Below are positions 4,652 to 24,023 of a DNA stretch of 64,000 nucleotides, piece by piece. How positions within the stretch are numbered: position 1 is the first letter of the stretch; each line of letters starts with the position of its first letter. This stretch comes from a virus: IMG/VR virus record IMGVR_UViG_3300022752_004319, positions 62,001-126,000 of that record. One strand, given 5' to 3'. Both the position numbers and the translations under genes were made by a program. A model generated the notes under the pieces. The model did no database searches and was not told the DNA's origin. It worked only from the letters and a program-made list of their open reading frames with translations.

Positions 4652-4652
4652 T

Positions 4653-5765
4653 TTACACTGTTGTAATCGGTACTGGAAAAGCTCTGTATTGCATTTGTTT
4701 ATTTAGATTTTCAGCAATTTTTGCTTCTCTTTCCATTATAAATTCTGGTCTTAATCTTTCAAGTCTTTTTGTTAATTCTTCTAATAAAATTTGTTTTTCA
4801 TCTTTAGCCTCCGTGGATAGTGATGTATAATCCATTTGAAGTTCACTATCTGGTGTTTTAAGATTTCCACTAAATTTACCTCTTACACGAGCTAAAGTTT
4901 CTTTAGCATAAGCTGTTAACCACCTTCTTACCCATTGTTGAGCAGGATCATTCAGATCTTGCCATGATAGTGCATCTAATGGGATATCGGAGGGTAATTT
5001 TACAATATCGGGATTATCCTTCAGACATTGATCCCTATCCTTATCGTAGGTATCATAATACCAATACCATACTTTTCCTCTATTAAGTTCTGAATTACCA
5101 AAGTCAAATTTACCACCGGGTGTATTATAAAGCATAATCGCTTTTTTTCCGTTAGGAAGTGCTGTAACTCTATATTGTAGATCTGGTTGTATGATTCTTC
5201 TTTTTATGTTGACATCTTGAAGTCGAGCCAAAACATCATAAGATGAAAAGAAAAAGTAACCACCACCACCCCAACCAGGTTGAGCATACCCACCTGGTCC
5301 ACCTATGCCTGGGCCACCTAAGGCCCCGAACGACCAAGGGTCAAAAAGTATGTTACTTTCTTCAGCTGGAGAAAACCATAAAAGTTCATTCAATTCACGT
5401 CCAGCAGGTATTTCGTATATTTGTTGATTCGCCTGTAATTGAATGTAATCTTTTTTTAACACCCACGGTCCTGAATTTTGTAGACCAACAATTTTGGAAT
5501 AAGCGTAAGTATATTGAGTTTCCCAATCTAGTGATCTTCTGACCAATGCATTTGCCACTGATTGTGTTTCTAGGTTTAAACCATATAGGGATGTCCATTG
5601 AGATTCAATCAACCAATCTTGCACATACTGGGTGTAATCACCAATTGATAATTCCATAAGTGAATCCATCATTTCGTCTGTAAGTTCTACAGAACGTAAA
5701 GGTGCTCCTAAGAGGTTATAAATCCTCTTGTACATTCTACTTCTATCTGGTTCAGCTATTATCAT
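4653..5765 (-). CDS. Putative neck / head-tail connector protein
   Basis: The 370-residue product has an alpha-helical N-terminus (residues 1-60), an 'IPAGRELNELLW' beta segment near residue 120, a Gly-rich loop (about 148-170), and a helical basic C-terminal half containing RVRGKFSG and a charged coiled segment (about 320-345). The pattern resembles a conserved virion protein of marine T4-like phages that I associate with the neck, but T4 gp13 homology cannot be shown by eye. Its ATG overlaps the stop of the upstream adhesin gene (TAATG), which implies translational coupling. Proximity to the other probable neck genes (12202, 14678) supports a connector role. Confidence 0.6.
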   Translation of the reverse strand: MIIAEPDRSRMYKRIYNLLGAPLRSVELTDEMMDSLMELSIGDYTQYVQDWLIESQWTSLYGLNLETQSVANALVRRSLDWETQYTYAYSKIVGLQNSGPWVLKKDYIQLQANQQIYEIPAGRELNELLWFSPAEESNILFDPWSFGALGGPGIGGPGGYAQPGWGGGGYFFFSSYDVLARLQDVNIKRRIIQPDLQYRVTALPNGKKAIMLYNTPGGKFDFGNSELNRGKVWYWYYDTYDKDRDQCLKDNPDIVKLPSDIPLDALSWQDLNDPAQQWVRRWLTAYAKETLARVRGKFSGNLKTPDSELQMDYTSLSTEAKDEKQILLEELTKRLERLRPEFIMEREAKIAENLNKQMQYRAFPVPITTV

Positions 5766-8533
5766 TACGTGATATTTACTGACCCATTATAAAACCCTAC
5801 GTTCAATGTTACAAGTCCGACAGGTGGAGGAGCATCCACGCCTATTTCAAGACCATACTCTAGGGCATTATATCCACAAAATACATTTAATGGTGACAAT
5901 CCAGCTTGAAGAGTATTAAATCTCAATTTAAATAGTTCTCCACCTTCAAAGCGAAAACTATTTGCACTGCTCCAGACCATAGCAATAGCTTGACCACTTC
6001 CACAATTCTGTGTAAAACCAGTACAATTGTCTTGGGGTGATGTGAATCCACTCCAAGTATATGTTATTCGAGGGTTTGCACAACTTAACTTAGTTGGGTC
6101 ATAAGTTATTTTCATACCCACAACCGTCATATCAATAGGTTCTTTTACTGTAAAAATGACAGGAACTTCAACAATTGAATTTACTTGCGCAGATACTTTT
6201 CCAATTGTTACAACATTATAACATAACTGTCCCCATCGTGGTTGTTTACTTGGTGTATTCACCCAAGTTGAATTTGCACCCGTGTTAAAGAATGCAGGTT
6301 GGGTTGCAATACTAGAAACACACCAATCACTTAAATCTTGATTAAATAATGTAGCATTTCTAAACATACTTGTCATAGTCATAGTTTCTATTTCGGAAAA
6401 ATCAAAATATCCAATATCTTGATTAAATGCCGTACAACCGTTGAACATATTTCCAAGGTTTAACCCTAAGCTGGCTTTCTTTTCAAATTCCCATCCAACA
6501 ATTGGCTGATTAAATATCGTGCACCCTGAAAATATACTAGATTGATTTCCTAATGTTAGTGTTATACCACTAAATATAGGTGAATTAAAAGATTGGGCAT
6601 TAGTTAAAAAACTATTGATGATTACACTGAAGCGAGTACTATTAGGTTTTAAATTCCAATTAGAAAGATTTGAATTAAATTGATAACAATTTTGAAACAT
6701 CCCACTAAGGGACTCACAAGAATTCATACTCCAACCACTTACATCCCCATTGAATACAAAACAGTCTTTAAACATATTAGTTGTTGATGTAACTTTACCC
6801 ATATCCCACTCATTTAATCTATTAATTGTAGTCAGACTACGACATCCATTGAAAAAATTATTTAGGACAGTTCCCAATATTGGTAAATCAGGACAATCTA
6901 CAGAAATCAAATTAAAACAATTATTAAATTGACCAGTTATAGTTGCACCACCATTTTGAAACAAGTTAACGTTTCCCCATTGTTTAATCTTTTTTAACAT
7001 CAATCGTGAAGTTGGAACGAAAGAAAATGACCATAAATTCAGTGTACCATTTATTACAATGGTATACGTACCATCCGCCGCATAAGTGTGTTGTGCGTTT
7101 ATTGAATTAACCGCTTGAACATTGCCACTTTGACCATCACCCCAACTTACTGTAAAATTATAAGAACCTGTATTCACTAGTGGTAAATAAAATGTACGTA
7201 AACTTGCATTAGCCTCAACCTCAATTATGAATGAATCTGGTGATTCAGCACGTGTTGGCGATACTGTAACTGTGGGTGTTACTGTAGGAGAGACTGATGG
7301 TGATATAGTTGGTGTTGGTGTTATATCTGGTGTTACTGGTGGTGTTGCCCCAAAAGATCTAGAAGTTGTCGGTGATGGTGTATTGGTTGGACTTACAGAA
7401 TTTGTTACCGTTGGTGTTGATGTTGGTTGTGGTGTTGGTTGATTTGGACAATTACTAAAAGTCAAATTAAGATTTCCTTGACAATAATTTGGTTCTTGGT
7501 TGATATACCCACCAGTGTAGTTTACTAGGGTTGCCGCAGAATATTGACCAGAAGGACTAGGAGGTCCTACTATTTTATTAATAAACGTATAAAGAACACC
7601 TGTAGAGGGATCTTGAAAGCCATAACCATTGTCAATATCAGAATTACTAGTTTTTAAGACATAAACATACTTTGCGGTATAAGAACCACCAGACACTGTA
7701 GAACAACAATCTTGAAAAATATTATAAGTAAAATTACTTGTAATTGTTGGTGTAGGCGTTGCAAATGGTGTTGGTTGTACATTAGAACAGTTTTGTATTT
7801 GGGAAATAAATGAACTAGATCCTGCAGAAAAAAATGTTGCATAAATGGGTGTAGAAGGTTCTTGAAGTTGAACATCCATAAACCCTTGCCATCTATTACC
7901 AAAAAACGATATAGGTTGATTTGTTGTTAAATCAAATATTCGATCTCCAGCCACAAGCTGACTCAAAGGTTTTGTTGTGTATCCTACAGGATTTCCATCG
8001 CTTCCCACAAAATTTCGAACCGCAGTACAAAGGAGCCCTGATTGTGTGTATCCTTGGGCAGGGTATTGAGGTCTGAAAACGTTGTATTTGGTTACACCTG
8101 AAGTTGGTGTTATTGTTGGTGTCAAGGTTGGAGTTGTTGTTACTTGAGGTGTTACATTTGAATTTCTGGTTGATGTTGGACTATTTGTTGGATTTGGTGT
8201 AGACCCTAAAGATTTTGTCGGTGTTGCTGTAACAGTATTAGAAGGTGTGTTAGGTGGTGTGGTGGTATTTGTTGGTGTGTTAGATGGTGTTGATCTAGGT
8301 GTACTAGTTGGTAGTGCGGTTCTAGAGGCTGTTAATGGTGGAAACGAATAAGAATCAGTGAATGTTTGTTGTTCTTCCGCTGTTTTTAATGTCCCATCGA
8401 TATACCAAATATTGATAGTTTCACCTGGATTTACCAAATGATTTGGTATAATCATATTATCAGAACATCTTCTATAACTTATAGTACTAATTTTAGATGA
8501 ATTATTAGTTAATGTGGTTTTTTTACAAAACAT
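5765..8533 (-). CDS. Multidomain adhesin: TPT linkers, PKD, DUF285 repeats, cohesin-like C-terminus
   Basis: The product has 922 residues. Reading N to C: a short head (1-65); a Thr/Pro linker (70-145); a module with KPLSQLVAGD and FGNRW (150-250) that recurs in the protease gene at 12726; a Cys-containing beta module (about 265-365); a second TPT linker (370-435); a PKD-like domain with VSWGDG and an HTY strand (about 445-510); a DUF285/BspA-type block with repeated 'MF..C..FN.d.s.W' units (about 550-750); and a cohesin-like beta domain (about 775-922, 'MKITYDPTKLSC'). Such combinations are typical of Bacteroidetes surface proteins. I infer a virion-displayed adhesin. No secretion signal is visible, which fits a tail component. 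A promoter-like motif lies 17 nt upstream. Confidence 0.85.
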   Translation of the reverse strand: MFCKKTTLTNNSSKISTISYRRCSDNMIIPNHLVNPGETINIWYIDGTLKTAEEQQTFTDSYSFPPLTASRTALPTSTPRSTPSNTPTNTTTPPNTPSNTVTATPTKSLGSTPNPTNSPTSTRNSNVTPQVTTTPTLTPTITPTSGVTKYNVFRPQYPAQGYTQSGLLCTAVRNFVGSDGNPVGYTTKPLSQLVAGDRIFDLTTNQPISFFGNRWQGFMDVQLQEPSTPIYATFFSAGSSSFISQIQNCSNVQPTPFATPTPTITSNFTYNIFQDCCSTVSGGSYTAKYVYVLKTSNSDIDNGYGFQDPSTGVLYTFINKIVGPPSPSGQYSAATLVNYTGGYINQEPNYCQGNLNLTFSNCPNQPTPQPTSTPTVTNSVSPTNTPSPTTSRSFGATPPVTPDITPTPTISPSVSPTVTPTVTVSPTRAESPDSFIIEVEANASLRTFYLPLVNTGSYNFTVSWGDGQSGNVQAVNSINAQHTYAADGTYTIVINGTLNLWSFSFVPTSRLMLKKIKQWGNVNLFQNGGATITGQFNNCFNLISVDCPDLPILGTVLNNFFNGCRSLTTINRLNEWDMGKVTSTTNMFKDCFVFNGDVSGWSMNSCESLSGMFQNCYQFNSNLSNWNLKPNSTRFSVIINSFLTNAQSFNSPIFSGITLTLGNQSSIFSGCTIFNQPIVGWEFEKKASLGLNLGNMFNGCTAFNQDIGYFDFSEIETMTMTSMFRNATLFNQDLSDWCVSSIATQPAFFNTGANSTWVNTPSKQPRWGQLCYNVVTIGKVSAQVNSIVEVPVIFTVKEPIDMTVVGMKITYDPTKLSCANPRITYTWSGFTSPQDNCTGFTQNCGSGQAIAMVWSSANSFRFEGGELFKLRFNTLQAGLSPLNVFCGYNALEYGLEIGVDAPPPVGLVTLNVGFYNGSVNIT

Positions 8534-9293: not shown

Positions 9294-12152
9294 TCAATTT
9301 CTCTTTTGGTTGATAGATTGAAGTATATTTTCAAGTGCATCTCCTTCAAACAACATTGTATCACCCATAACAGTATTAATAATTCTTTTTTTCTTATCTA
9401 GAATGTCATAGATAATTCCTTCGATTGTATTTTCGAATAGAGGGTAATAAACTACTACTGTATTTTTTTGTCCATATCGGTATGCTCTATCTTCTGCTTG
9501 AGAGTGGTCTGATGGTAGAAACGACAAATCGTTCATAATAACAGTTTCGGCGGCAGTTAAAGTTAAACCAACACCCGCGGCTTTGATATTACCAACAAAG
9601 ACTTTAACTTTATCATCGGTTTGGAATTTATCCACAGCATCTTGTCTTTCTCCTTTTGGTGTTGATCCATCAAGTTTTACCGCGACTTTTTTGAAGTGAT
9701 TATAAATTGCGTTAAGAGAATCAGTAAAGTTACAAAAGATGATAACTTTTTTATCTTGATCTAAAATATTTTCACACAGTTCTATTGTTTGTGCAACTTT
9801 TTCATTTGCAATAATTTGTCTGACTTTTGCGATTTTGGAAAATTGCATAGTTAAAGAATTTGACTCACCTCCCTTATCATACCATTCGTAATATTCCCCC
9901 ATAACTTCTTCGTATTCCCGAGATTTCAATCGCATATAAATTGGAGAAATTATTTTTTCAGGTAAGTCTAGTACGTCGTTTTTTAGTCTTCGTAACACAA
10001 AAGGTTTTGTTCTTTCATAAAGTTCTTCCAAATTTGACGCACCACTTACATTCCATATTTTTCTATTACCAGCACGGAACTGATACCCATTACAATAACG
10101 CTTGACATAAGCCATCCAATTCTGAGCAACATTGCAGTCAACTAAATTGAGTAGATTGAAATAATTTATTGGTCGAGATGTCACGGGAGTTCCGGTTAAC
10201 AACCAAGTTCTTTGTGACATTTTACTAATGTCATTTACAAGTTTGGTTCTCTGTGCTTGAACATTACAAATCGCGTGGGCTTCATCAACTATTACCAAAT
10301 CAAATTTTGCGTCACGTATTATTGATTCCGAATCTTTTTCTAATGTGTGGAAATTTTTCAAAATATCGTAGTTGATAATAACGTAATCAGCATCTTCCCA
10401 TTTTTTACCTTCGACAATAGATATGGATTTATCAGAATAATTTTCAATTTCTCTTTTCCAATTTATTTTGAGTGATGCAGGACAAATAACGAGGGTTTTT
10501 TTGGATTGTGCTTCAAGTGACGCAACAACAGCGGTGGTTGTATTGTGTGTAACAATACAATGTTGAGCTACGTATAATTTATCTGGAGCATCTACTGAAA
10601 TACAGGTACAATAATCCTCACCTTGTTTTTCAATTTTACTAATGTATCTACCTGTTCGATATTTTTGCGGCTCGTTGTATCTTTCTGATTTCCTTTTTAA
10701 TCTAAATGGATTCATACCTTTAGGTAGTTTTATGTTCAATCGGTAGGATGGTCTACATTCAATTCTTTCCCCGTTTTTTTTATAAAAACTTTTTCTCTTT
10801 CTTTTACGCACAATTCCGCCCAAAGTATGAACAATTTCACACAAATCATCACAAAGTTTCTCAGATACTGTTGAAAATTCTGTACCACCAAAATTTCCAT
10901 TTTTAGATAACATACAATAACCATCAGTGTCCATCAATCCTTGGAGTATTGCAAGACGATTATTTATAGAGGTATATTTGTATATGTCAGGTATAAATTT
11001 AGTATGTGACCGAGTATGAGATAGTGATAGATTTTTTAATGGTTCACCGATAGAAATGGAACAGGTTCGTTTATTATCGTATTGTTTATTTTCTTTAATC
11101 TTAAAATTACCAAATAATTCATCGAAATCATCTCGATGAGTTTCGAACTTACATGAAATACTTTGGATATGACCGTCTCCTAAAATTAGACCTAATAGAT
11201 AGGGGTCTATTGGTAGTTCATCGTTATTTTCAAACTCAATTGGTTCTACTATGGGTATTTGCCATTTGTTAGCCCCGTTAGACCCTCGATAGTGAGTGTT
11301 TATTGAGTATGTTCTAAAATTATTGTATCCACGACCTTGATCTTGTATAATATGATTTTCATACATTTGTTTTGTGGATAATGTAAGAGTTTTCTTCAAC
11401 CTATTGTTATTGGAGTTTTTACCATGATTAGAAGAAGACACTGACCAAAGATGTGACTCATCGGTAAAGATAAAAAATCCATCGTTGAATGTGACTTTAT
11501 ATGTTTCTCGTATACCCTGAGGAAAAACACCAATCACATTAACTGGTTTTCCGTTTGAGCCAATGACTTTGTCACCAATCATAATATCACCCATTTTTTT
11601 GGTTCCATTTGGTGTGTATATCAAAGTTTGGTTTGACAACGCTTTACCGAGTCCCAAATCATCCGCTAAAATATACTTTTTGTTTTCACACAGAGTTTTT
11701 ACACCTTCTTTTTGATGTTCGAGTAATGGTCGATGGGAGTATTTCTCAAAATCAATTTCTACGTTTTTGATTTTATTATCTTTGATTACCGCAGCTTTTG
11801 GTATCCAAATATCATGTAAACCTTGATTTTCAAAATAATATCCCCACACGTGATAAGCGGTTTCTTTTTCAACTAAAAGTTTTTCTATCCAAATTTGCGT
11901 CGGTACTTCTATAAACATTTTTTCATTTGCAATTTTACTCGCAAAATATGTGTCTAATTGTACCCATTTTTTTGCAACCTTTGGTTCTCTTTTGTGATAT
12001 TTAATCACATATTCGGTTTGAGTTGCGTTAGGAAAAAATTTAGGATTTGAATCCCTTTTGTGTTTTAATTTGAGAATAAAGTTATTCGCACCTTCATAAC
12101 GATCTATAATATCTAAGGCTTGATTTTCTCTTGCGTTTAATTGACTATCCAA
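9294..12152 (-). CDS. SNF2-family DNA helicase/translocase containing an intein
   Basis: This is a superfamily 2 SNF2-like ATPase. The extein shows Walker A DDLGLGK|TTT, split between residues 170 and 538, then DEAH (VIVDEAHAI), the 'LLTGTP' motif III region, and the C-terminal helicase motifs AAGVGLTLTAAE and QAEDRAYRYGQ. Removing the 367-residue intein leaves about 585 residues, a normal size for small phage SNF2 proteins. These may remodel DNA-protein complexes or aid recombination and replication restart; T4 UvsW is a functional comparison only. The N-terminal 140 residues are not recognised. It opens a minus-strand transcription unit from the divergent region 12153-12201, followed by SOD. 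If splicing failed, the ATP site would be destroyed. Confidence 0.93.
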   Translation of the reverse strand: MDSQLNARENQALDIIDRYEGANNFILKLKHKRDSNPKFFPNATQTEYVIKYHKREPKVAKKWVQLDTYFASKIANEKMFIEVPTQIWIEKLLVEKETAYHVWGYYFENQGLHDIWIPKAAVIKDNKIKNVEIDFEKYSHRPLLEHQKEGVKTLCENKKYILADDLGLGKALSNQTLIYTPNGTKKMGDIMIGDKVIGSNGKPVNVIGVFPQGIRETYKVTFNDGFFIFTDESHLWSVSSSNHGKNSNNNRLKKTLTLSTKQMYENHIIQDQGRGYNNFRTYSINTHYRGSNGANKWQIPIVEPIEFENNDELPIDPYLLGLILGDGHIQSISCKFETHRDDFDELFGNFKIKENKQYDNKRTCSISIGEPLKNLSLSHTRSHTKFIPDIYKYTSINNRLAILQGLMDTDGYCMLSKNGNFGGTEFSTVSEKLCDDLCEIVHTLGGIVRKRKRKSFYKKNGERIECRPSYRLNIKLPKGMNPFRLKRKSERYNEPQKYRTGRYISKIEKQGEDYCTCISVDAPDKLYVAQHCIVTHNTTTAVVASLEAQSKKTLVICPASLKINWKREIENYSDKSISIVEGKKWEDADYVIINYDILKNFHTLEKDSESIIRDAKFDLVIVDEAHAICNVQAQRTKLVNDISKMSQRTWLLTGTPVTSRPINYFNLLNLVDCNVAQNWMAYVKRYCNGYQFRAGNRKIWNVSGASNLEELYERTKPFVLRRLKNDVLDLPEKIISPIYMRLKSREYEEVMGEYYEWYDKGGESNSLTMQFSKIAKVRQIIANEKVAQTIELCENILDQDKKVIIFCNFTDSLNAIYNHFKKVAVKLDGSTPKGERQDAVDKFQTDDKVKVFVGNIKAAGVGLTLTAAETVIMNDLSFLPSDHSQAEDRAYRYGQKNTVVVYYPLFENTIEGIIYDILDKKKRIINTVMGDTMLFEGDALENILQSINQKRN
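10542..11642 (-). mobile_element. Intein with LAGLIDADG endonuclease in the SNF2 Walker A motif (class 3 signature)
   Basis: It covers residues 171-537 of the host protein. It begins with Ala (ALSNQTLIYT) instead of the usual Cys/Ser and ends IVTHN, followed by Thr+1. Block B has Trp236 in SHLWSV, block F has Cys517 in CISVDAPDKLYV, and the +1 residue is Thr: this Trp-Cys-Thr set is the published signature of class 3 inteins, which splice without a residue-1 nucleophile. The endonuclease domain has two LAGLIDADG-like helices, YLLGLILGDG (about 318-327) and AILQGLMDTDG (about 401-411), with acidic residues intact, so homing could still be active. Insertion exactly at the GK|T of Walker A is a classic conserved insertion point. 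Confidence 0.9.
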
Positions 12153-12201: not shown

Positions 12202-12717
12202 ATGGCACAAAATCAAGTTCCAATCACAAGATTAGGTAAATTTTTCGGTCAAGAAGATTTCGATTTGGATGTTAGTATGGGTCGTGAATGGCTCGATGGT
12301 GATATGAATTTTACCATTGTTGTCTATCGCGTAAACAAACAAAAAACAAATCAAGACGATGTTTATGGTGAGGCGGTACCTCAATCCATAGAGTTTTTAC
12401 CACCAATATCAGTAAACGCTTATTTGCAAATTATGCAACCAGATATGGCTTTCTTGGGTAATTCTAAGGTTATACAAAACGAACCAGGTAATATCAAATT
12501 CGCTATTTACCAAAAAGATTTGGACGACCTACAAGTTTCCATTAGTTTGGGTGATTACATCGGTTATTGGATTACCGAAAATCAAGTAAGATATTATTCA
12601 GTTGTTGATAAGGGGATACCCAATTATGACAACAAACATACTTATGCAGGATATAAACCTTTCTATGTCAGTTACATTGCAACACCAGTAACTGCTAACG
12701 AATTTATGGGGATTTAA
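12202..12717 (+). CDS. Small virion-type protein, possible neck component
   Basis: The 171-residue product has no membrane segment. It is rich in beta-strand-type sequence with a central 'PGNIKFAIYQKDLDDLQVS' segment and a Tyr-rich C-terminal third (YYSVVDKGIPNYDN). I do not recognise the family. It opens the plus-strand unit that leads to the protease-adhesin and the probable neck/tail-terminator protein, and a putative neck gene lies on the opposite strand nearby. A gp14-like neck role is therefore conceivable from position alone. The start is set by the promoter-like motif directly upstream, and the next gene begins 8 nt after the stop. Confidence 0.7.
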   Translation: MAQNQVPITRLGKFFGQEDFDLDVSMGREWLDGDMNFTIVVYRVNKQKTNQDDVYGEAVPQSIEFLPPISVNAYLQIMQPDMAFLGNSKVIQNEPGNIKFAIYQKDLDDLQVSISLGDYIGYWITENQVRYYSVVDKGIPNYDNKHTYAGYKPFYVSYIATPVTANEFMGI

Positions 12718-12725: not shown

Positions 12726-14630
12726 ATGAAAACTAAAATAATAAAAGATCTAATTAAAAAATTGTTATCCGAAAATTCAGATACAAACATTATTGGTATT
12801 TCATTCGGAAATAAAATTGTAGATGGAAAGTTTACTTCAGAGTTGGGTATTACATTTTATGTCAATGAAAAAATAAAGTATGAAGATGTAAATCCTGACT
12901 TTTTAATTCCTGAAAAAATTGAATATATGGGGTATGAATTTTCAACGGATGTGTCTACTGTGACAACTCAATTGCTATCAACGTGTCCATCTGATTTTTA
13001 CTCTTGGGAGACAACACCACCCCCAAATAGAGACCTTATTCCTATTTTATCAGGTGGTACTTCAATAATAAATGGTACTTTGGGTGGATTAGTAATTGAT
13101 GATACTAGTTATTCTTTAGCAGGGTTAACAAACGGACATGTTGTTGGATGGCAATTATTAAATTCTGATGTCAATCCATATTTTCCAGTTCAAGGTTTAT
13201 ACCAAAGTACAATATATCAGGGTGAAGTTGAAGATAATCAAGTTTTAGGAATTGTAAAGAATTATTATCCTGCCGAAAATGATCCAGCCAACACATTGAT
13301 TGATGCAGCACTTGTAACAATACCAAGAGAATTGGTAGATTTTGAATCTTCTTATCGTCAGATTGGTCTTACAGGATGGACACAACCTATGGATTTTGCA
13401 ACCACGGAAGAAATCGATGATTTGATTTTTACAAAAGCAAATTTGTATAGCTCGGGAAGAACGACTGGTGCAAAAGGTGAAGGTGAAATGAAGTTAGTGT
13501 GTATGGCAACTAACTATTTTGCTCCTGGTGCTGGTAAAACAATTGATGATTTAATAGTGTATGTTGCTAGTGCTACTACAACACCAATTGGTACTGTATG
13601 CCCATTTCCTGTTTGGTTGGGTGATAGTGGTTCTATAGTATCCGCTGACATTAATGGAACTCGTAAAATAATTGGATTAATCGCAGTGTTTGTTACTTTC
13701 AATAACTTAGACGCTTGTGGTGTTTGTAGAATTGACAATATTCGAAATCTTCTCAAGATTTCACCTTGGACTGGACAAACTGATGTTAATTTTTCAAATT
13801 CAGCTATTACTGAAACTATTTTAACAACTAATAACTATTCTGATCCATATGTTGTCTCAGATTCTAAAACTTTTTGGCAGAGGGGAATTCTACAACCGAC
13901 CGTAACCCCAACAATAACCCCTACACCGACCACTTCCCAATTTTCTACCCCGCAACCAACACCGACACCTTCTTTTACACAAACACCAACAAGAACCTCA
14001 GACCCGAATTGTTTTCCACAAATAAATGCAACTTGTTACACTTGGTCATTACAACTATTACCATTGAATTTCTCTTATTTTTTCTTACCTACAATTGTTG
14101 CATGGGCTAAATATACTGATTGTTATGGAACACCTATTATTAAATTAGTAGAAATTGCCAATAATCAAATTTCATACATATGTTCAAAAGAACGACCTGT
14201 GATCGTTCAAAGTAGAAACGAAGCCAATAACATTTCGAGTGTATCCTTTATTAGTCAATACATAAATATTACCCAACTCTCACCATGTGGTTCATACTGT
14301 GTTAATGTTACTCCAACACCTACATCTACACCTGTAAATTATTTGATTTACGGTTCTTTTAGTCCTATTGTCGGATCTACCACGGCACTTGCCGCTTGTA
14401 ATGCTTTAACCAATGAAACCGCGGTAGTTTATGGATACATTACCAAACCTTTGAGTCAATTGGGTGCTGGAGATGTAATATATGATATAAACACAAATTT
14501 ACCGAAAGAAACTTTCGGAAATAGATATCGTGCTTTTTCAGAATCACCACTACCATTAATAAAATATGTAGCATATTGGCAGGTGAGTGGATCATTAATT
14601 ACTAGTGTTGTTAATTGTAATGAACTTTAA
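12726..14630 (+). CDS. Trypsin-like (Nal1-type) serine protease fused to tail-adhesin modules
   Basis: The 634-residue product has an N-terminal 'GISFGNK..DG..TSELGITFYVNEK' segment (22-50), typical of Nal1-like/S1-fold bacterial peptidases. A trypsin-fold domain follows with His138 (TNGHV), Asp193 (DAALV) and Ser301 in GDSGS, plus SSGRTTGAKGEG (about 242-253). The triad order and spacing fit chymotrypsin-fold enzymes. After about residue 390 come a TPT linker, a Cys module ending CGSYC (about 432-533) shared with the genes at 1 and 14678, and a C-terminal module (about 537-634) with TKPLSQLGAGD and FGNRY, shared with the 922-residue adhesin. There is no signal peptide. I infer a virion-associated protease that either trims host surface proteins or matures tail fibres. 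Confidence 0.85.
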   Translation: MKTKIIKDLIKKLLSENSDTNIIGISFGNKIVDGKFTSELGITFYVNEKIKYEDVNPDFLIPEKIEYMGYEFSTDVSTVTTQLLSTCPSDFYSWETTPPPNRDLIPILSGGTSIINGTLGGLVIDDTSYSLAGLTNGHVVGWQLLNSDVNPYFPVQGLYQSTIYQGEVEDNQVLGIVKNYYPAENDPANTLIDAALVTIPRELVDFESSYRQIGLTGWTQPMDFATTEEIDDLIFTKANLYSSGRTTGAKGEGEMKLVCMATNYFAPGAGKTIDDLIVYVASATTTPIGTVCPFPVWLGDSGSIVSADINGTRKIIGLIAVFVTFNNLDACGVCRIDNIRNLLKISPWTGQTDVNFSNSAITETILTTNNYSDPYVVSDSKTFWQRGILQPTVTPTITPTPTTSQFSTPQPTPTPSFTQTPTRTSDPNCFPQINATCYTWSLQLLPLNFSYFFLPTIVAWAKYTDCYGTPIIKLVEIANNQISYICSKERPVIVQSRNEANNISSVSFISQYINITQLSPCGSYCVNVTPTPTSTPVNYLIYGSFSPIVGSTTALAACNALTNETAVVYGYITKPLSQLGAGDVIYDINTNLPKETFGNRYRAFSESPLPLIKYVAYWQVSGSLITSVVNCNEL

Positions 14631-14677: not shown

Positions 14678-17197
14678 ATGGCTCTACCTAAAAAAGTAAT
14701 ACCAAATATTAATTTAGTTCCTCCAAAAATATTATTGGAGCGAAGAGAACAATTGTTGGAGGATATCACAAACGATGGTACATACCTTCCAAAGAATTTA
14801 GATTATGCTGATCTAGATAGGGGGTTTTTGGATTTTGTAAAAAACGAATTAAAAACAATTGTAGATGGTAAAATAATACCTACTGTTGACATTCTTATCA
14901 CCACACAAAATTGGGCTCAATTTACACAGACGTGGTCTTTTCAAGATTTGAATGGTAACACAGAACCACCCTTTATTACTGTTGTTAGAGTTCCTGAAGT
15001 TAAATATGGTACAAATCCAGCGACACTTTATAATATCCCAAATCAAAAAGAATTCTTTTATGCAGCAGTTCCAACTTGGAATGGTAATATAAAGGGATTA
15101 GACATTTATAAAATTCCCCAACCTGTACCCGTTGATATTTCTTTCAACGTTAAAATAATTTGTAATCGTATGAGAGAACTCAACGAGTTTAATAAAAATG
15201 TAATTCAAACTTTTGCCTCTCGGCAAGCTTACACAAAAGTTAATGGTCATTTTATTCCGATTATAAATTCAAATATTTCTGATGAATCTGTAACTCAAAT
15301 CGACAAACGTAGATTTTACATTCAGAATTATGACTTCACTATGTTGGGATTTATTTTAGATCAAGACAAATTCGAGGTGGCTCCTGCGGTATCAAGAGTA
15401 TTGAATGTTTTCGAAACAAATTTCAAACCAATCAATCGAAAAAGAAAAGTATTCCCTGTAAATGAAGGTGTATTTGATTTAACAGTTCAAGCGGTTAGGA
15501 ATTCTCCTGTAGTTCGTACAATAAATGTTGATTATACAGGAACCTTTACCATATTGTCAACTCAGAATGTTAGTTCATATGATCTATTTGTAAGTTTAAG
15601 TAATAGTTCTGAATTTGATTTTTATGGGACTAATGTAATCAATTTTGAGGTAAATACGGGTGATCGATTGAGATTTGAGATTACCCAACAAAATAATGAT
15701 CCAACCTCAATTATTACTTATGCGGTTTCTTTGATCGGGTCACCTCAAAATTTAACTTTTGATCTTCCAACCCCATCCGTTACACCGAGTAATACTGTTA
15801 CCCCCACAAACACACCAACAAATACTCCAACACCCTCTGTAACACCATCTCAAACATTAACACCAACAAGTTCCATAACTCCTACACCAACCCCCTCGTT
15901 AACATCATCTCCAACATCTACGCAGACAACTACTCCTACTCCTTCTTCTACCTCTACTTCAGGTTGTGAAACTTATACTTATACGTGTTACAATTATCAA
16001 ATTACCAACACATCAAGTTCTGAACAACCTTTATTATTAATATATTCAGCGTGTACATCACAACCAACCGTATTGTCAATATCTTTAACTTCAGGACAAA
16101 CAACTACGATATGTGCCGTGGCATATACGATAGTTGTTGCCGATAGTTATTCTATAGTTTCTTTGGGTACCTGTGGTTCTTTTTGTATTACTTTCACAAA
16201 CATTCTTGTTCATATACCTAACCTGACACCCTCATTGACACCATCTCCAACACTAACACCGACAAGCTCCATAACACCAAGTATTACTCCAACTAAAACA
16301 CCAACACCAACACTAACACCGACAAGCTCCATAACACCAAGTATTACTCCAACTAAAACACCAACACCAACAAGTTCCATAACACCAAGTATTACTCCAA
16401 CAAATACAACATCAGTTACACCAACTAGTTCCATAACTCCTACACCAACACCAACAAACACTCTTCCCCTAGTAACCGACTATGATGGTAATACTTATGA
16501 ACAAATTATAATTGGTAACCGTGTGTGGTTGGGGGGTAATATGAAAACTACTCATTACAACAATGGGGATATAATACCATATAGAGGTTATTTATCTGGT
16601 AACACCGAACCGTTTTGTTCGTTTAGTGGCGAGGGTGCGTGGATGTATACTAAATTGAGTGACAATTTTCCTGAAGACCCTAATTACAATCAGACCGCTG
16701 GTAAACTTTATAATTATTATACAATTACCGATGTACGTGGTATTTGTCCCGTAGGATTCAGACCAGCAGACACTGGCGATTGGTATAATTTAAGTATATC
16801 TTTGGGCGGAGGTATAAGTGGTGGTCAGTCTCCTTCAAACTTTTATCCCATCAATGGGGGGTTGAATGGGGCTCTAGCTCCTTATACAGGTTTTTCACAA
16901 CAAATTAAATCTACTCTAAACCCACCTTATGGTTGGACAATATTAGCTTCTGAACCTATTCCTACAAATTCTTCGAATTTCTCAGCTTATCCTAGTGGAG
17001 GTATTTATGCGGGGATTGAGGATACTTGTAATCCGTTTTTTAATGGTAATAACGAGTGTTGGTGGTGGACCAATAGTTCCAATTTTTACTTACCAGATAC
17101 GATTAACTATGTTTACCTTGGAGGCACCGTCCTTGGAGGGGATTCGGCTCAACCAAATTCGGCACTTTGTATCCGTTGTGTTAGAGATCTTGTCTAA
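14678..17197 (+). CDS. Neck/tail-terminator-like protein with TPT linkers, Cys module and C-terminal FISUMP domain
   Basis: The product has 839 residues. Residues 1-270 form a globular virion domain containing 'NRMRELNEFNKNV' and 'KRRFYIQNYDFTMLGF', which resembles the pattern of T4 gp15-type tail terminators, though this is weak. An Ig-like segment follows (285-365), then a TPT linker, a Cys module ending CGSFC (427-505), a second linker with an exact DNA tandem repeat, and a C-terminal FISUMP domain (about 603-839: DYDGNTYEQIIIGNRVW, GKLYNYYTI, CPVGFRPADTGDWYNL, ECWWWTNSS, CIRCVRD). FISUMP is a Fibrobacter/Bacteroidetes extracellular domain. The gene lies just before the sheath, as gp15 precedes gp18 in T4. 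I infer a tail-neck protein that displays a binding tip, possibly whisker- or collar-fibre-like. Confidence 0.85.
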   Translation: MALPKKVIPNINLVPPKILLERREQLLEDITNDGTYLPKNLDYADLDRGFLDFVKNELKTIVDGKIIPTVDILITTQNWAQFTQTWSFQDLNGNTEPPFITVVRVPEVKYGTNPATLYNIPNQKEFFYAAVPTWNGNIKGLDIYKIPQPVPVDISFNVKIICNRMRELNEFNKNVIQTFASRQAYTKVNGHFIPIINSNISDESVTQIDKRRFYIQNYDFTMLGFILDQDKFEVAPAVSRVLNVFETNFKPINRKRKVFPVNEGVFDLTVQAVRNSPVVRTINVDYTGTFTILSTQNVSSYDLFVSLSNSSEFDFYGTNVINFEVNTGDRLRFEITQQNNDPTSIITYAVSLIGSPQNLTFDLPTPSVTPSNTVTPTNTPTNTPTPSVTPSQTLTPTSSITPTPTPSLTSSPTSTQTTTPTPSSTSTSGCETYTYTCYNYQITNTSSSEQPLLLIYSACTSQPTVLSISLTSGQTTTICAVAYTIVVADSYSIVSLGTCGSFCITFTNILVHIPNLTPSLTPSPTLTPTSSITPSITPTKTPTPTLTPTSSITPSITPTKTPTPTSSITPSITPTNTTSVTPTSSITPTPTPTNTLPLVTDYDGNTYEQIIIGNRVWLGGNMKTTHYNNGDIIPYRGYLSGNTEPFCSFSGEGAWMYTKLSDNFPEDPNYNQTAGKLYNYYTITDVRGICPVGFRPADTGDWYNLSISLGGGISGGQSPSNFYPINGGLNGALAPYTGFSQQIKSTLNPPYGWTILASEPIPTNSSNFSAYPSGGIYAGIEDTCNPFFNGNNECWWWTNSSNFYLPDTINYVYLGGTVLGGDSAQPNSALCIRCVRDLV
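16251..16370 (+). repeat. Exact 60-bp tandem duplication within the TPT linker
   Basis: Positions 16251-16310 and 16311-16370 are identical. A third, partial and diverged unit follows to about 16405. The period of 20 codons keeps the frame, so each unit adds 20 residues to the linker. Confidence 0.95.
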
Positions 17198-17475: not shown

Positions 17476-20400
17476 ATGGCAACTACCAATAAAATATTTG
17501 TTTCCCCTGGTGTTTATACATCCGAGAGGGATTTGAGTTTTGTAGCACAGAGTGTTGGTGTTACAACTTTGGGTTTGGTTGGTGAAACTCTTACGGGCCC
17601 AGCCTTCGAACCTATTTTCATAACTTCTTATGATGAATTTGAAGCATTTTTCGGAGGTACACTCCCTGAAAAATTTGTAAATACACAGATACCAAAATAT
17701 GAATTAGCTTATATTGCTAAATCATATTTACAACAATCAAATCAATTGTTTGTAACTCGTGTATTGGGACTTTCAGGGTACGATGCTGGACCAAGTTGGT
17801 CGTTATTAACTGTGGCTAATGTTGACGGGACTACTGTGGATTTTGCAAGAACAAACAATATCATTCAAAATCAAACGTGGACTCTTAATTTTGTTGCAAC
17901 ACAAGGCGGAACTGTTTCAATAGCACCTTCTGGGAATAGTTTGGTTAATCAAAATTTAAATAATGTTTTCACTTTATTAAATGGTAATCAATCGTCGATT
18001 TCAGCACAATTGACCAATCAAATTTTAGGTGTGGTAAATTCTTCAGGTGCCACACAAAATAATACTGTGTATTTTTTTGGAACCGTACCCGAGGCTACAT
18101 ATCAAGTTTTAACATCTTACACCGCACAAACAAATGTATTTGGTGTTTCTGGTTTAACTGATTTCAATGCTGATTTCTCATCACCAGATAATGATGCTTG
18201 GTATTACGCAAACTTCAACGAACCAGCAAATGCTCCTTATTCTGGATATTCGTTTTTTTCTGTTGTAACTAGTTTTGTTAATAATGGTTCAGGAACTTAC
18301 ACAGGTACATTATCAGGTGTTACTTTCAATTATAGCGGTAAATCTTTTGCCGATTATGATGAAATTTGTATAGCTACTTTGAGGTCTCGTGGTATTTCCA
18401 CATATGGCTCTGGTCAGGGAGGTCCTCAATATCAAGTAACAGGTTTAACATCAGTTGGATTGAATTTAATTGGTACTTATTCGGCGGCAACACAAAACCC
18501 TTTTGCACGTTTTGCTATAACAGGTGTTACCGACGGCGCTGATACACCTGAAAATTTTTCTTTACTTGTATCTTTTTCTCAAACCGACCAAAATTATTTG
18601 CCGTCTGTTATGGGACGTACAAACTTTGGTAAGAGTAGGTTTGAAATCCCACTTTTTGTTGAGGAGATTTACCCTTCGTTTTTGACCTATGCATACAATA
18701 AAGGTTATATCAGAGGAATAAAACCTCAAATTTTATCAGCTCCAGGGTTACGTTATGGAAACATTCTCCCGACACCTACAACACAAAATAATATATCAGC
18801 ACAATCAATGGCTAATTATTTAGAAAGATATAGATCGGGAGAATCCCCTTGGGTAGTTTCTCAACTTCGTGGTAGTACTGTAGACAGACTTTTCAAGGTT
18901 CTTACGATTTCTGATGGAGATAGTTCGAATGTACAAGTCAAAATTTCAATTCAAAATATATCTTTTGGTAATCTATCATTTGATTTGGGTGTTAGAGATT
19001 TTTACGATACTGACACAAATCCTGTTTATTTAGAAAAGTTTACTAACTGTTCTATGGATCCAAGTTCTAACAGTTACATTGGTGTTAAGATTGGTACATC
19101 AGATGGTGAGTATGCTCTCAATTCAAAATATATTATGCTTGAATTGAACGCTGACGCACCTGTGACTTCACTACCTTGTGGATTTGAAGGATATGAAGCT
19201 CGTAACGTGCCAGGTTTCCAACCAGCTTACCCGATTTACAAATTGAGTTATAACTATCCCGGTGAGGTTATTTACAATCCTCCTTTTGGTTCTATGACAG
19301 GACCAACATCATCTCGTGGAATGTCAAACGCAATTATGAGTCAAGGCGATAAAGTCCGTACAACATTTTTGGGTATTTCAAGTCAAATAGGGTATGACGT
19401 TGATTTTTATCAATATAAAGGAGCTAAAGCACCTCTTGATATTTGTACAAGTGAATTTGCGTTACCTTATGATTATCAAACACAAGGTTTCCATATGGAT
19501 TCAGGAGCGACTGTAGTTCAGATCGTATTTGGACCAACAGCAGGAACTCCCGCCTTTTTATGTGGTAATGCCACGTTCCAATCTGATCCAGATTCACCTT
19601 CTAATCCTTATTATCAAATTCAAGCTCGTAAGTTTACTTTCTTGGTTCAAAAGGGTTATGATGGTTGGGATATCTATCGTGAGTATCGTACAAATGGTGA
19701 TCAATTTGTTTTGGGTGGTTCAGGATATCAGAGAGGTGCATGTGCATCTACAAGATATCCAAACGCAACAGGATGGGGCGCGTTTAAACCAATTAGTATT
19801 TCAAATTTCACGGATTATACTAATACGGATTACTATGCTTACTTACTAGGTATAAGTACTTTTAATAATCCAGAATCAACTAATATCAATGTTTTTGCAA
19901 CCCCGGGTATTGATTACGTTAACAATTCTAATTTAGTGGAAGATGCGATTTCAATGATTACCTATCAAAGAGCGGATTCAATTTATATTGCAACCACCCC
20001 TGATTGCAATGTGTTCTTACCTACCAATATAGATAATTTTATTTATCCAACCGAAGCGGTAGACAATTTGGATGAAGTTGGTATTGATTCAAACTACACA
20101 GCTACTTACTATCCTTGGATCTTGGTAAGAGATACTGTGAATAACACACAGATTTACATTCCCCCAACAAATGAAGTTTGTAGAAACTTGGCTCTAACGG
20201 ATAATATTTCATTCCCTTGGTTTGCTACCGCTGGTTACACTCGTGGTTTGGTCAACGCTATCAAAGCTCGTAAGAAACTTACACAAGAAGATAGAGACAC
20301 TTTGTATCAGGGCCGTATTAATCCTATCGCTACGTTCTCTGATGTTGGAACTGTGATTTGGGGTAACAAAACTCTTCAGATTGCTGATACAGCATTGAAT

Positions 20401-20709
20401 AGAATTAATGTGAGAAGATTGTTACTACAAGCTAGAAAACTTATCTCCGCAGTTGCCGTTAGGTTATTGTTCGAACAAAACGATGCCAAGGTACGTCAGG
20501 ACTTCTTAGACAGCGTCAATCCTATTTTGGATGCCATCAGAAGAGACAGAGGTCTTTATGACTTCAGAGTGACTGTAAGCAGTTCTCCTGAGGATTTAGA
20601 CAGAAACACACTCACAGGTAAAATCTATCTGAAACCTACTAAAGCGTTAGAATTTATCGATATAGAGTTCTTGATTACACCAACTGGAGCATCTTTTGAG
20701 AATATCTAA
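17476..20709 (+). CDS. Tail sheath protein (T4 gp18-like)
   Basis: This is the contractile tail sheath subunit. The N-terminus (FVSPGVYTSERDLS) and following 'TTLGLVGETLTGPAFEPIFI' segment are the characteristic sheath start. The C-terminal domain carries 'TRGLVNAIKARKKL', 'FSDVGTVIWGNKTLQ', 'INVRRLLLQARKLI' and an ending in 'FIDIEFLITPTGAS', as in T4-like sheaths, where the termini donate strands to neighbours. At 1077 residues it is much longer than T4 gp18 (659), so the middle (about 150-650) must hold extra surface domains. A terminator follows at once, consistent with a strong single-gene transcript. The tube gene is separated from it by two inserted genes. Confidence 0.97.
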   Translation: MATTNKIFVSPGVYTSERDLSFVAQSVGVTTLGLVGETLTGPAFEPIFITSYDEFEAFFGGTLPEKFVNTQIPKYELAYIAKSYLQQSNQLFVTRVLGLSGYDAGPSWSLLTVANVDGTTVDFARTNNIIQNQTWTLNFVATQGGTVSIAPSGNSLVNQNLNNVFTLLNGNQSSISAQLTNQILGVVNSSGATQNNTVYFFGTVPEATYQVLTSYTAQTNVFGVSGLTDFNADFSSPDNDAWYYANFNEPANAPYSGYSFFSVVTSFVNNGSGTYTGTLSGVTFNYSGKSFADYDEICIATLRSRGISTYGSGQGGPQYQVTGLTSVGLNLIGTYSAATQNPFARFAITGVTDGADTPENFSLLVSFSQTDQNYLPSVMGRTNFGKSRFEIPLFVEEIYPSFLTYAYNKGYIRGIKPQILSAPGLRYGNILPTPTTQNNISAQSMANYLERYRSGESPWVVSQLRGSTVDRLFKVLTISDGDSSNVQVKISIQNISFGNLSFDLGVRDFYDTDTNPVYLEKFTNCSMDPSSNSYIGVKIGTSDGEYALNSKYIMLELNADAPVTSLPCGFEGYEARNVPGFQPAYPIYKLSYNYPGEVIYNPPFGSMTGPTSSRGMSNAIMSQGDKVRTTFLGISSQIGYDVDFYQYKGAKAPLDICTSEFALPYDYQTQGFHMDSGATVVQIVFGPTAGTPAFLCGNATFQSDPDSPSNPYYQIQARKFTFLVQKGYDGWDIYREYRTNGDQFVLGGSGYQRGACASTRYPNATGWGAFKPISISNFTDYTNTDYYAYLLGISTFNNPESTNINVFATPGIDYVNNSNLVEDAISMITYQRADSIYIATTPDCNVFLPTNIDNFIYPTEAVDNLDEVGIDSNYTATYYPWILVRDTVNNTQIYIPPTNEVCRNLALTDNISFPWFATAGYTRGLVNAIKARKKLTQEDRDTLYQGRINPIATFSDVGTVIWGNKTLQIADTALNRINVRRLLLQARKLISAVAVRLLFEQNDAKVRQDFLDSVNPILDAIRRDRGLYDFRVTVSSSPEDLDRNTLTGKIYLKPTKALEFIDIEFLITPTGASFENI

Positions 20710-20728
20710 TAGTTTTTTTTCTCTTTTT

Positions 20729-20761
20729 AAAACCCTCTAATTTTTTTTTAGGGGGTTTTTT
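20729..20761 (+). terminator. Intrinsic terminator after the tail sheath gene
   Basis: The stem AAAACCCTCTA / TAGGGGGTTTT, with one wobble, has a T-rich loop and a following T-run, beginning 20 nt after the sheath stop. Confidence 0.8.
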
Positions 20762-20774
20762 CATTATATTTGTT

Positions 20775-20783
20775 TATATTTAT
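20775..20783 (+). promoter_or_regulatory. TATATTTAT motif, homing endonuclease
   Basis: It lies 40 nt before the preferred ATG at 20824. It falls inside the longer TTG-initiated frame, which argues that the upstream codons are leader, not protein. Confidence 0.4.
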
Positions 20784-20823
20784 GTGTAGAGAAGTTCTCA
20801 TTAAATTAAACTATATTTTACCA

Positions 20824-22350
20824 ATGAAGATAGAATTGTCATGTAAGAATTGTGATAAATTATTCACTACTGATTTTAAACACAGGGACAAACAATTTTG
20901 TAATAGATCCTGTTATTTTGAATTTGCAAGAAAAAACAACTTATTAGGTAAAGAAAAGGATCAATCTATTAGAGAGACTAGAAAATGTTTACAATGTGGT
21001 GTTGAATTTGTAGAAAGAAAAAAACACAAAAAAAATATTTGTTCCGATGAATGTCGGGGTTTATGGGGTTCAAATAAAGACAATATAAAAAAAAGAATAG
21101 AAAAATCTCAGAAAGTTTTATTGGAGAAGTACGGGTACAATTCAATTTTCAAAATTAATGGTTTCCGAGAGAATATGAAGCAAATTTTCCAGAAAAAGTA
21201 TGGTGCAGATCATCCTATGGGTTGTAAAGTAATTGTGGACAAATTGAAAAATACCGTCAAAGAGAAACACATTATAAATTTATTAACGAGATTAAAAAAA
21301 CATAATATTATCTTGTTAGACGACTATAAAACTAATAAAAACGGCAATACTACCTATCCTTATAATTTTCGATGTGATGTCTGTAACAACGTATTTTCGA
21401 GTACTCTTCTAGGTTCTGGTAAAGTACCTATATGTCGGAAATGTTACCCCATAACTAAAAATTCTAAATTGGAGACTATCATTAAGGATTTTTTGAATGA
21501 GAAAAATGTTAAACATTTAGATAATGATAGGAAATTACTTAGTGGTAAAGAGATTGATATTTTTTTACCTGATTATAATTTGGGTATAGAACTTAATGGG
21601 AATTATTTTCATTCCGAGGTTTCTGGTAACAAAGACAAATATTATCATTTGAATAAAATGATTTTGGCTTCATCAAAAAATTTAAAACTTTTGCATTTTT
21701 TTGAGGATGAAATAATATTAAAAAAAGAAATTGTTTTTTCGCGTTTATCTAATCTTCTAAATCTTAATAGAGTAATTTATGCTAGAAATTGTTTAATAAA
21801 AGAAGTAATCAAGAAAGAGTCTTCAGATTTTTTAAATACAAATCATCTACAAGGAAATTCTGTTGATAAAATTAGATACGGATTATACCATAATGACATA
21901 TTGGTTTCAATTATGACTTTTGGAAAAAAAAGAAAGTCGTTGGGTCACAATCAATCAGGGGTTGATGATTATGAACTTGTTAGGTATTGTAATATTTTGA
22001 ACCACAATATTGTTGGTGGTTTCAGTAAATTATTGAATTTTTTTATTAAAACCCATTCACCGAGAATTATTGAAACGTATGCTGATATCAGATGGTCGGG
22101 ATTAAACCCAATCAATACTGTATATTCAAAAAATGGTTTCGTTTTTAAAAAACAAACACCCCCAAATTATTGGTACATAAAAAACGGCGATTCATTACAC
22201 CGAAGTCATAGATTTACATTCAGAAAAAATGTTTTAGTCCAAGAGGGGCATTCCAAAGAAAAAACTGAATGGGAAATAATGAAAGAGAAGGGGTATGATA
22301 GAATTTGGGATTGTGGTTCTATGAAATTTGAATTGACTCCTATCAAATAA
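20824..22350 (+). CDS. Free-standing homing endonuclease, Vsr/EDxHD-like, with zinc-finger N-terminus
   Basis: The 508-residue product has three Cys-pair elements near the N-terminus (CKNC..CNRSC, CLQCG..CSDEC) and a further CDVC..CRKC pair (about 195-220). A nuclease core follows (about 225-330) with KEIDIFLPDYNLGIELNG, HSE and YHLNKM..LLHFFEDE. This arrangement matches the Vsr-like family of phage mobile endonucleases (I-Bth0305I relatives). The C-terminal part is a GNAT-like or unknown domain. It lies between sheath and tube genes that are adjacent in T4, which supports recent insertion. I chose ATG 20824 over the TTG at 20770 because the upstream 18 codons are promoter-like and hydrophobic. 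Confidence 0.85.
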   Translation: MKIELSCKNCDKLFTTDFKHRDKQFCNRSCYFEFARKNNLLGKEKDQSIRETRKCLQCGVEFVERKKHKKNICSDECRGLWGSNKDNIKKRIEKSQKVLLEKYGYNSIFKINGFRENMKQIFQKKYGADHPMGCKVIVDKLKNTVKEKHIINLLTRLKKHNIILLDDYKTNKNGNTTYPYNFRCDVCNNVFSSTLLGSGKVPICRKCYPITKNSKLETIIKDFLNEKNVKHLDNDRKLLSGKEIDIFLPDYNLGIELNGNYFHSEVSGNKDKYYHLNKMILASSKNLKLLHFFEDEIILKKEIVFSRLSNLLNLNRVIYARNCLIKEVIKKESSDFLNTNHLQGNSVDKIRYGLYHNDILVSIMTFGKKRKSLGHNQSGVDDYELVRYCNILNHNIVGGFSKLLNFFIKTHSPRIIETYADIRWSGLNPINTVYSKNGFVFKKQTPPNYWYIKNGDSLHRSHRFTFRKNVLVQEGHSKEKTEWEIMKEKGYDRIWDCGSMKFELTPIK

Positions 22351-22368
22351 TTTTTTTTATTATTTCAA

Positions 22369-22377
22369 GTATTTATA
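22369..22377 (+). promoter_or_regulatory. GTATTTATA motif, HAD gene
   Basis: It lies 44 nt before ATG 22422, after the endonuclease stop at 22350. Confidence 0.4.
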
Positions 22378-22421
22378 ATTCAGTAAGTCTAAATTGTACA
22401 TTATTGAGATTGTTTTTTTTT

Positions 22422-23243
22422 ATGAGAATAACGAAATATACGTTAAAGGAAGGTTTTGACATTGAAGGTACCCCCGATTTGAAGTATTATGCTTTTGACT
22501 GGGATGATAATATTCTTCAGATGCCAACAAAAATTATGTTGGTTGATGCTGGGGGTAATGAAGTTGGTATGTCAACAGAGGACTTTGCAAAATTCCGATC
22601 TAAAATTGGAAGTGGGGAATTTGAATACGAAGGACATAAAATTGTTGGGTATGCGGAAGATCCTTTTAGATTTTTTAGGACACTAGGTGATAAAAAGTTT
22701 TTGTTCGATGCAATGCAGGCAAAACCTGGACCAGCCTGGTCAGATTTTATTGAAGCCATCAACAACGGATCTATTTTTTCTATCATCACAGCTAGAGGAC
22801 ATAACCCAAGAACAATTAGAGAAGCTATCTACAATATGATCATACAAAATCATATGGGTATCAACAGAGATTTACTTGTTAAAAACCTTAAGAAGTATAG
22901 AAAGATTACCAAGGAAGGTCCAACAAATACAAAAGATCTTGTTAATTACTACTTGGATTTGAACAAATATTATCCTGTTTCCTTTGGAGATGAGGGAAGT
23001 GCTTCAAATCCTGAAGAACTCAAAGTGAAAGCTCTTAGAGAATTCATTAACTATGTTAAACAACATGCAAAGAAGTTAAAAAAGAAACTCTATTTGAAAG
23101 ATGAAATAAGTAATAGATTTATACCTACAATTGGGTTTTCAGATGATGATATAAAGAACTTAGAAAGAATTAAACAAGAATTTATTAAAGAACCTTTATT
23201 AAAAACTTATAACACTTCATCAGGAACTAAAACCAAATTCTAA
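22422..23243 (+). CDS. HAD-superfamily phosphatase-like protein
   Basis: The 273-residue product has the HAD motif I YYAFDWDDN (nucleophile D26, general acid D28), motif II IITARGH (about 123-129) and an acidic motif IV GFSDDD near residue 240, with lysines in the central region. All catalytic positions are present. In phages HAD proteins include nucleotide 5'-phosphatases and the T4 PseT 3'-phosphatase half, but there is no kinase domain here and the substrate cannot be told. The start is ATG 22422; a TTG six codons upstream precedes a poly-T stretch and is unlikely. It lies between the homing endonuclease and the tail tube gene, and its stop abuts a 112-bp tandem repeat. Confidence 0.85.
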   Translation: MRITKYTLKEGFDIEGTPDLKYYAFDWDDNILQMPTKIMLVDAGGNEVGMSTEDFAKFRSKIGSGEFEYEGHKIVGYAEDPFRFFRTLGDKKFLFDAMQAKPGPAWSDFIEAINNGSIFSIITARGHNPRTIREAIYNMIIQNHMGINRDLLVKNLKKYRKITKEGPTNTKDLVNYYLDLNKYYPVSFGDEGSASNPEELKVKALREFINYVKQHAKKLKKKLYLKDEISNRFIPTIGFSDDDIKNLERIKQEFIKEPLLKTYNTSSGTKTKF

Positions 23244-23466: not shown

Positions 23467-23483
23467 AAAAAAATTCAAAAGCT

Positions 23484-23493
23484 AATATTTATA
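23484..23493 (+). promoter_or_regulatory. AATATTTATA motif, tail tube
   Basis: It lies 19 nt before the tube ATG, just downstream of the 112-bp repeats. Confidence 0.5.
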
Positions 23494-23512
23494 AACAAAA
23501 AACAAAAAAGTT

Positions 23513-24001: not shown

Positions 24002-24023
24002 AAATTATTAAACCTTCATTATT

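Follow-up and report, generated by a model that had tools for sequence, protein, structure and literature searches.

NARROW LEAF 1 (NAL1) of rice is a serine protease whose targets in the plant are TOPLESS-type corepressors, which it degrades; the alpha-lytic-type proteases are secreted pro-enzymes, and the HtrA/Deg enzymes are PDZ-bearing proteases. Activity of the maize orthologue of NAL1 is described in part of the text of one report (PMC12915138). An overview of jumbo phages names prohead, ClpP, XkdF-type and NlpC/P60 peptidases, and the word 'trypsin' is absent from the portion of its text covered here (PMC7824862). The window analysed is the whole stretch of 64,000 nucleotides (nt) from positions 62,001 to 126,000 of the IMG/VR virus record IMGVR_UViG_3300022752_004319 (131,753 bases). 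Its open reading frame (ORF) 12726-14630, the only copy in the record, encodes a NAL1-type serine protease fold with predicted catalytic competence. The gene is cargo flanked on either side by a conserved structural gene, shortly before the tail sheath gene, and in other IMG/VR viruses the protein encoded immediately before such a protease commonly ends in a short peptide tag.

The window protein resembles rice NAL1 (PDB 7y77, 8pmm and others) in the fold of the whole core including the N-terminal domain, in the TN-x-HV segment and in GDSGS, but differs from it in its low identity (about 17%), its phage structural setting, the upstream tag and its C-terminal modules. Among viral proteins, PHROG 20754 'protease', a profile of 324 positions, matches residues 18-197 only (E 5.5e-11), and its label points to no tag or adhesin setting. 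The sole family match in isolate records, with four family queries, is the 'putative serine protease' (ORF 25-326) of Aeropyrum coil-shaped virus, an archaeal single-stranded DNA virus, which shares 22.9% identity with the family member L163 (E 7e-3; L numbers denote loci) and whose protease gene has mostly hypothetical neighbours. The tblastn searches of isolate phages with the family queries P0001, L001d and L086 and with the downstream ORF 14678-17197 gave no match, and none was found in 84,980 bacterial and archaeal genomes by two scans (alignments A1 and A4), which were pattern-based, so that distant relatives could escape. The fold is thus already known, and neither a phage NAL1-type protease nor such a docking tag, nor tag-linked use of the protease as phage cargo, was found in the literature searched, outside which most subscription papers lay.

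Fold and catalytic residues

A profile of 58 relatives matched rice NAL1 in the PDB (E 2.4e-7) over the N-terminal domain and the TN-x-HV segment; phmmer with the full-length window protein returned nothing from the PDB. The AlphaFold2 (AF2) model of residues 1-390 (predicted local distance difference test (pLDDT) 86, predicted template-modelling score (pTM) 0.89) has the whole NAL1 core fold, and NAL1 chains fill the first 33 ranks of a Foldseek search with it (best E 5.3e-15). The crystal and cryo-EM entries of NAL1 show an oligomeric assembly; the model here is of a monomer. A second aligner (VIA), whose fold comparisons were drawn only from entries ranked by Foldseek, gave Z 29.1 against NAL1 over 304 aligned residues (root-mean-square deviation 3.0), with model residues 1-355 corresponding to 92-454 of the chain, Z about 20 for the alpha-lytic and Streptomyces proteases and Z about 14 for HtrA/Deg. 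The latter two groups possess a trypsin-fold barrel like that of the window protein and match the barrel region but not the NAL1 N-terminal domain, whereas both parts align with NAL1 and are therefore shared with it.

The Pfam family NAL1_N (PF25608) matches the window protein at E 0.055, its 13.7 bits lying below the curated cut-off of 27, and is found at E<=0.1 in 25 of the 58 family members (best 6.1e-7), while Nal1_C (PF25819) gives a weak match in one of the 58 (E 0.081). Since the likeness lies in fold and profile and the Pfam score is below the cut-off, the protein is named NAL1-type and is not filed as a member of NAL1_N. Pfam gave no PDZ family for the window protein or for any of the 58 cores, no prohead protease family was matched in Pfam, PHROGs or NCBIfam, and the NCBIfam matches of the 58 cores were at chance level.

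Model and alignment give the two-barrel trypsin/chymotrypsin fold with the triad in the order His, Asp, Ser. These residues are invariant in the first six aligned relatives, and among 115 complete family ORFs, all distinct, 110 retain the full triad. Of the other five, two are degenerate paralogs, one has a D-to-E substitution and two are pieces of a single split gene. A preliminary description of the window, made from its letters, had proposed a Nal1-type trypsin fold with H138, D193 and S301 in GDSGS as a full triad, a GIS.GNK segment, a GRTTG motif and TPT linkers, and had suggested structure prediction as a check. The three residues lie at the positions that it gave and the motifs are present (GISFGNK starts at residue 24, TNGHV at 135, LIDAAL at 191, SGRTTG at 243, GDSGS at 299, and TPTPT at 398 and 529), and the fold is borne out by the profile search, the model, the fold match and the conservation within the family. 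Its two modules shared with neighbouring adhesins fared unequally. The C-terminal module, which recurs alone as the only other match in the virus record, is 37% identical over 97 residues to ORF 5765-8533 on the minus strand (E 1.3e-12; matching residues 547-634). The likeness of the Cys-containing module to ORF 14678-17197 is weak (E 0.064 among the window ORFs; 25% identity and E 2e-4 in a single comparison).

For the wider family in IMG/VR, up to 80 loci were taken from each of three scans, which had found 179, 205 and 216 relatives. The bare core (<460 residues) makes up 83 of 124 distinct family ORFs, the others being longer, and in all but ten the start of the core falls among the first 60 residues. 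As many as six family ORFs stand in tandem around the 14678-type gene on contig IMGVR_UViG_3300016472_000307 (loci L017, L226 and L229), and one of the six contains two protease domains, of which the latter is degenerate; elsewhere family genes adjoin genes of giant TPT-rich or Thr-rich proteins. Two members (L017|8795 and L025|4042), arrayed beside intact copies, have lost H, D and S altogether, and in L001 8598-11285 a degenerate second domain, which by eye has neither the histidine nor the GD of GDSGS, stands behind an intact one.

A C-terminal tag on the protein encoded upstream

The proteins encoded directly upstream of the proteases frequently end in the consensus N-T-[IVL]-[FYW]-x-x-[FIYW], often followed by PN, as in TVFLYIPNN, TVFIHIPNLL, NTLFVHYPN, NTIYTHFEAL and NTIWIKFNPVTPA. 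The upstream ORF was taken as the longest with a gap of -60 to 120 nt, limits set before counting. Excluded were upstream ORFs with a duplicate C-terminus, proteases cut off by the beginning of the locus and proteases lacking an upstream ORF within range (two in the first set). A strict pattern, derived by eye from some of the first-set loci, was present in 40 of 60 distinct upstream ORFs and in 8 of 387 other ORFs of the same loci. Fixed before the hold-out, it was found there in 36 of 48 upstream ORFs against 13 of 504 others (Fisher 3e-35), in loci of the two further scans that can be kin of first-set loci; the 12 misses include several close variants such as NTIYVHTP and ESIFMFIPNL.

The tag occurs across many unrelated upstream proteins, which form 25 sequence clusters, 20 of them tagged, under a stricter mask (a loose one had fused 45 of 60 through TPT linkers), or 64 clusters, 46 tagged, when grouped by the 120 residues before the tag. 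Thr occupies pattern position 1 in all of the 76 strict tags, though V or L is allowed, and is specified by four different codons; the gaps to the protease gene range from -41 to 27 nt and are mostly 1-21 nt. As Thr is invariant while codons and gaps vary, the tag is conserved at the protein level. Of the family members followed by another family gene, 6 of 7 carry the tag themselves, against 1 of 107 among the rest, by a broad pattern devised after the tandem cases were known. Searched in reverse, viral contigs hold 37 stretches fitting a DNA pattern of one tag form, of which 31 lie in short or internal frames and six end plausible genes; five of these six are followed immediately by a protease, and the sixth contig ends 47 nt past the tag. 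Proteins ending in tag variants also precede degenerate proteases without H, D and S. Neither the tag, nor the tandem and degenerate copies, nor the cargo slot appeared in the preliminary description.

Eight loci (L073, L081, L089, L090, L091, L092, L093 and L094) form a subgroup in which the region N-terminal to the barrel is longer and of a different kind. In this subgroup seven of the eight upstream proteins carry the strict tag, and the eighth carries a near variant.

In the window, a tag-like peptide, TNILVHIPNL (residues 507-516 of ORF 14678-17197; the strict pattern fails), follows the Cys module and precedes the TPT linkers; another internal tag-like peptide, far from any gene start, occurs in L012. 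In L228 the core of the 14678-type protein is identical (100%) to that of the window and its Fib_succ_major end is kept, the Cys module and the tag are absent, and the 12202-type gene runs directly into the 14678-type gene with no protease between. The more distant L236-L242 (core identity 90-92%) have neither extension nor protease. Extension and protease are found together in L231-L233 and L235; L234 breaks off short of the core, with the C-terminal part of the protease visible. In L230 proteases are present, the 14678-type gene is split, and no HIPN peptide was seen.

A proposed docking model and alternative explanations

The tag that closes the upstream protein would bind, as a beta strand, to the NAL1-type core of the next protein, so that family members would be recruited to phage structural or adhesin-like proteins, the core staying at the N-terminus and optional C-terminal modules being displayed. 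In the window the likely partner would be the sheath-adjacent protein 14678-17197, through its internal tag-like peptide, and the displayed protease may act on a host-surface protein or on neighbouring phage adhesins, two targets that the preliminary description had likewise proposed for a virion protease. The hydrophobic alternation of the tag, like that of an edge strand, its place before both live and dead cores and the N-terminal position of the core all fit docking, and the occurrence of dead proteases after tag-variant proteins points to binding rather than cutting. Fold, triad conservation, the linkage of tag and protease and the cargo position were computed, and from them we infer the physical docking, virion location, activity and substrate. 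We consider it an evenly balanced proposition that a competent NAL1-type protease is carried as tail-cluster cargo, docked by the tag on structural or adhesin-like proteins and displayed on the virion. A host surface protein would be the likelier target, with processing of the partner as the main rival. More tentatively, the tag may belong to an assembly code, in which the C-terminal beta-strand tag of one surface protein would be captured by the next NAL1-type core and live and dead proteases and adhesive modules could succeed one another in a head-to-tail chain on the virion; on the contig with six family ORFs each tagged member would be followed by its acceptor.

Several observations weigh against docking. 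Of the 108 upstream ORFs of the first set and the hold-out together, 76 carry the strict tag and 32 do not, though many of the latter are near variants; both tags preceding dead proteases fail the strict pattern, and the first protease of one tandem pair (L080/L203) has no tag. For L001c, a self-tagged protease, AF2 models the tag as a strand of a C-terminal hairpin (pLDDT about 60), and no docking site is seen. The window gene upstream of the protease (12202) is untagged, and TNILVHIPNL, a stretch within the downstream protein, has N at the place of the T that all the strict tags share; since this copy is atypical, internal and in the downstream gene, the link between tag and protease is weaker here. 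The 5.7 kb fragment L243 has the peptide in its 14678 homologue, with a neck-like gene upstream and no adjacent protease, and is a counterexample unless the protease lies elsewhere in the L243 genome.

The same linkage of tag and protease, together with the strongly kept triad, would also be expected of a maturation protease, for which the tag would mark the upstream structural protein as substrate, to be trimmed, or to activate the protease, during assembly without retention in the virion. DegS is activated on binding the C-termini of outer-membrane proteins; DegS and DegP stand lower in the fold list, where one DegS entry holds the activating peptide DNRLGLVYQF, and the bare cores (83 of the 124 family ORFs) have no modules to display. 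This explanation is nonetheless unlikely, though it deserves serious weight, as dead members still follow proteins with tag-variant ends, many cores continue into large C-terminal modules, and beyond its strand pattern the tag has no conserved cleavage-like residue. It is improbable that the enzyme is a soluble intracellular protease acting on a host protein and merely encoded beside structural genes: no signal peptide is apparent by eye and most members are compact and single-core, but this reading accounts neither for the tagged end of the protein encoded upstream, nor for the fused modules that recur in adhesin-like proteins, nor for the repeated siting beside giant TPT-rich proteins.

The degenerate copies in L017, L025 and L001 could suggest that the trypsin fold is a purely binding or structural, non-catalytic module, which is very improbable in view of the triad being kept in nearly all complete family ORFs. 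Hardly credible is a tag serving as a nucleotide signal, for translation coupling or as a recombination junction, instead of as a peptide; its place at gene junctions with mostly short gaps would suit such a role, but synonymous codons and gaps vary, Thr does not, and the internal peptides of L012 and of the window ORF 14678-17197 lie far from any gene start.

Genomic setting and other genes

The neighbours of the protease gene in the window include a tail sheath gene, tail-tube and baseplate matches, a UvsX-like recombinase and a ribonucleotide reductase (Pfam, PHROG), which together indicate a large T4-like contractile-tailed phage. The tail-adhesin setting that the preliminary description gave to the protease is supported by its structural and adhesin-like neighbours. 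Among isolates, the sheath is best matched by Microcystis phage Mel-JY01 (30% identity). The features are listed in Table 1.

Table 1. Features of the protease locus (positions in the window)
Feature	Position	Strand	Basis
Conserved neck-like structural gene at the upstream edge of the slot, untagged	12202..12717	+	Conservation; function inferred from position only
NAL1-type serine protease gene with C-terminal modules, 634 residues	12726..14630	+	ORF, model, fold search
NAL1_N-like N-terminal domain, residues 1-80; in the model one helix and two beta hairpins	12726..12965	+	Pfam, AF2 model
Trypsin-fold barrel, residues 106-350	13041..13775	+	Region covered by alpha-lytic-type proteases (about 106-350), Z about 19-20
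H138, predicted catalytic histidine	13137..13139	+	Motif TNGHV, family conservation
D193, predicted catalytic aspartate	13302..13304	+	Motif LIDAAL, family conservation
S301 of GDSGS, predicted nucleophile	13626..13628	+	Motif, family conservation
TPT-rich linker, residues 393-424	13902..13997	+	Sequence
Cys-containing module, residues 427-527 (about 425-530)	14004..14306	+	Weak likeness to module preceding the tag in ORF 14678-17197
C-terminal module, residues 538-634	14337..14627	+	Common to ORF 5765-8533 (-)
Conserved sheath-adjacent protein, core 1-350; extension with TPT linkers, Cys module, internal tag, Fib_succ_major domain	14678..17197	+	
Internal tag-like peptide TNILVHIPNL	16196..16225	+	Translation; strict pattern fails
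Tail sheath gene, which anchors the structural cluster	17476..20709	+	Pfam and PHROG sheath matches

Of 83 distinct pairs of a 12202-type and a 14678-type gene in related viruses, 60 have the first standing directly before the second (gap <100 nt); the sheath follows the 14678-type gene within 400 nt in 84 of 86. The slot between the two holds a protease in the window and in L002-L005, and other ORFs elsewhere. Most 14678 homologues have 345-356 residues and no TPT extension, and the core (36 sequences) has no meaningful PDB or PHROG match. To read the 14678 product as a tail terminator, or the 12202 product as a neck protein, would rely on gene order and its comparison with the T4-like order, and neither is claimed. 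In L025 the 14678 homologue is split at 1515-1536 into two ORFs (350 and 383 residues) by a frameshift, either real or an assembly error, and the Fib_succ_major end is fused instead to a dead protease (4042-6096).

Three further observations concern other genes. ORF 9294-12152 on the minus strand is a DNA-helicase gene with an apparent intein-like insert near the Walker A site, the intein being read by eye; terminase and primase profiles match at residues of about 140-540, and the homologous ORF has 507 residues in L001 against 874 in L003, consistent with an empty site. ORF 20770-22350 on the plus strand, between the sheath gene and gene 22404, encodes an HNH homing endonuclease (PHROG 3339, E 2e-106), and in L002 and L003 a 22404-like gene follows the sheath directly (by eye). 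Record bases 20001-40000 (L421) hold ORFs that by eye resemble sugar-nucleotide dehydratase/epimerase and dehydrogenase genes, like a surface-glycan cluster.

A protease type studied in cereals for leaf and flowering traits is here a common, fast-diversifying cargo of environmental viruses. If the docking model is true, phages carry surface proteases through a modular peptide tag, and the tag and the core would form a candidate tag-receptor pair open to a peptide binding assay. Such proteases and their partners would then be recognisable from sequence, which would bear on how protein-coated hosts are breached.
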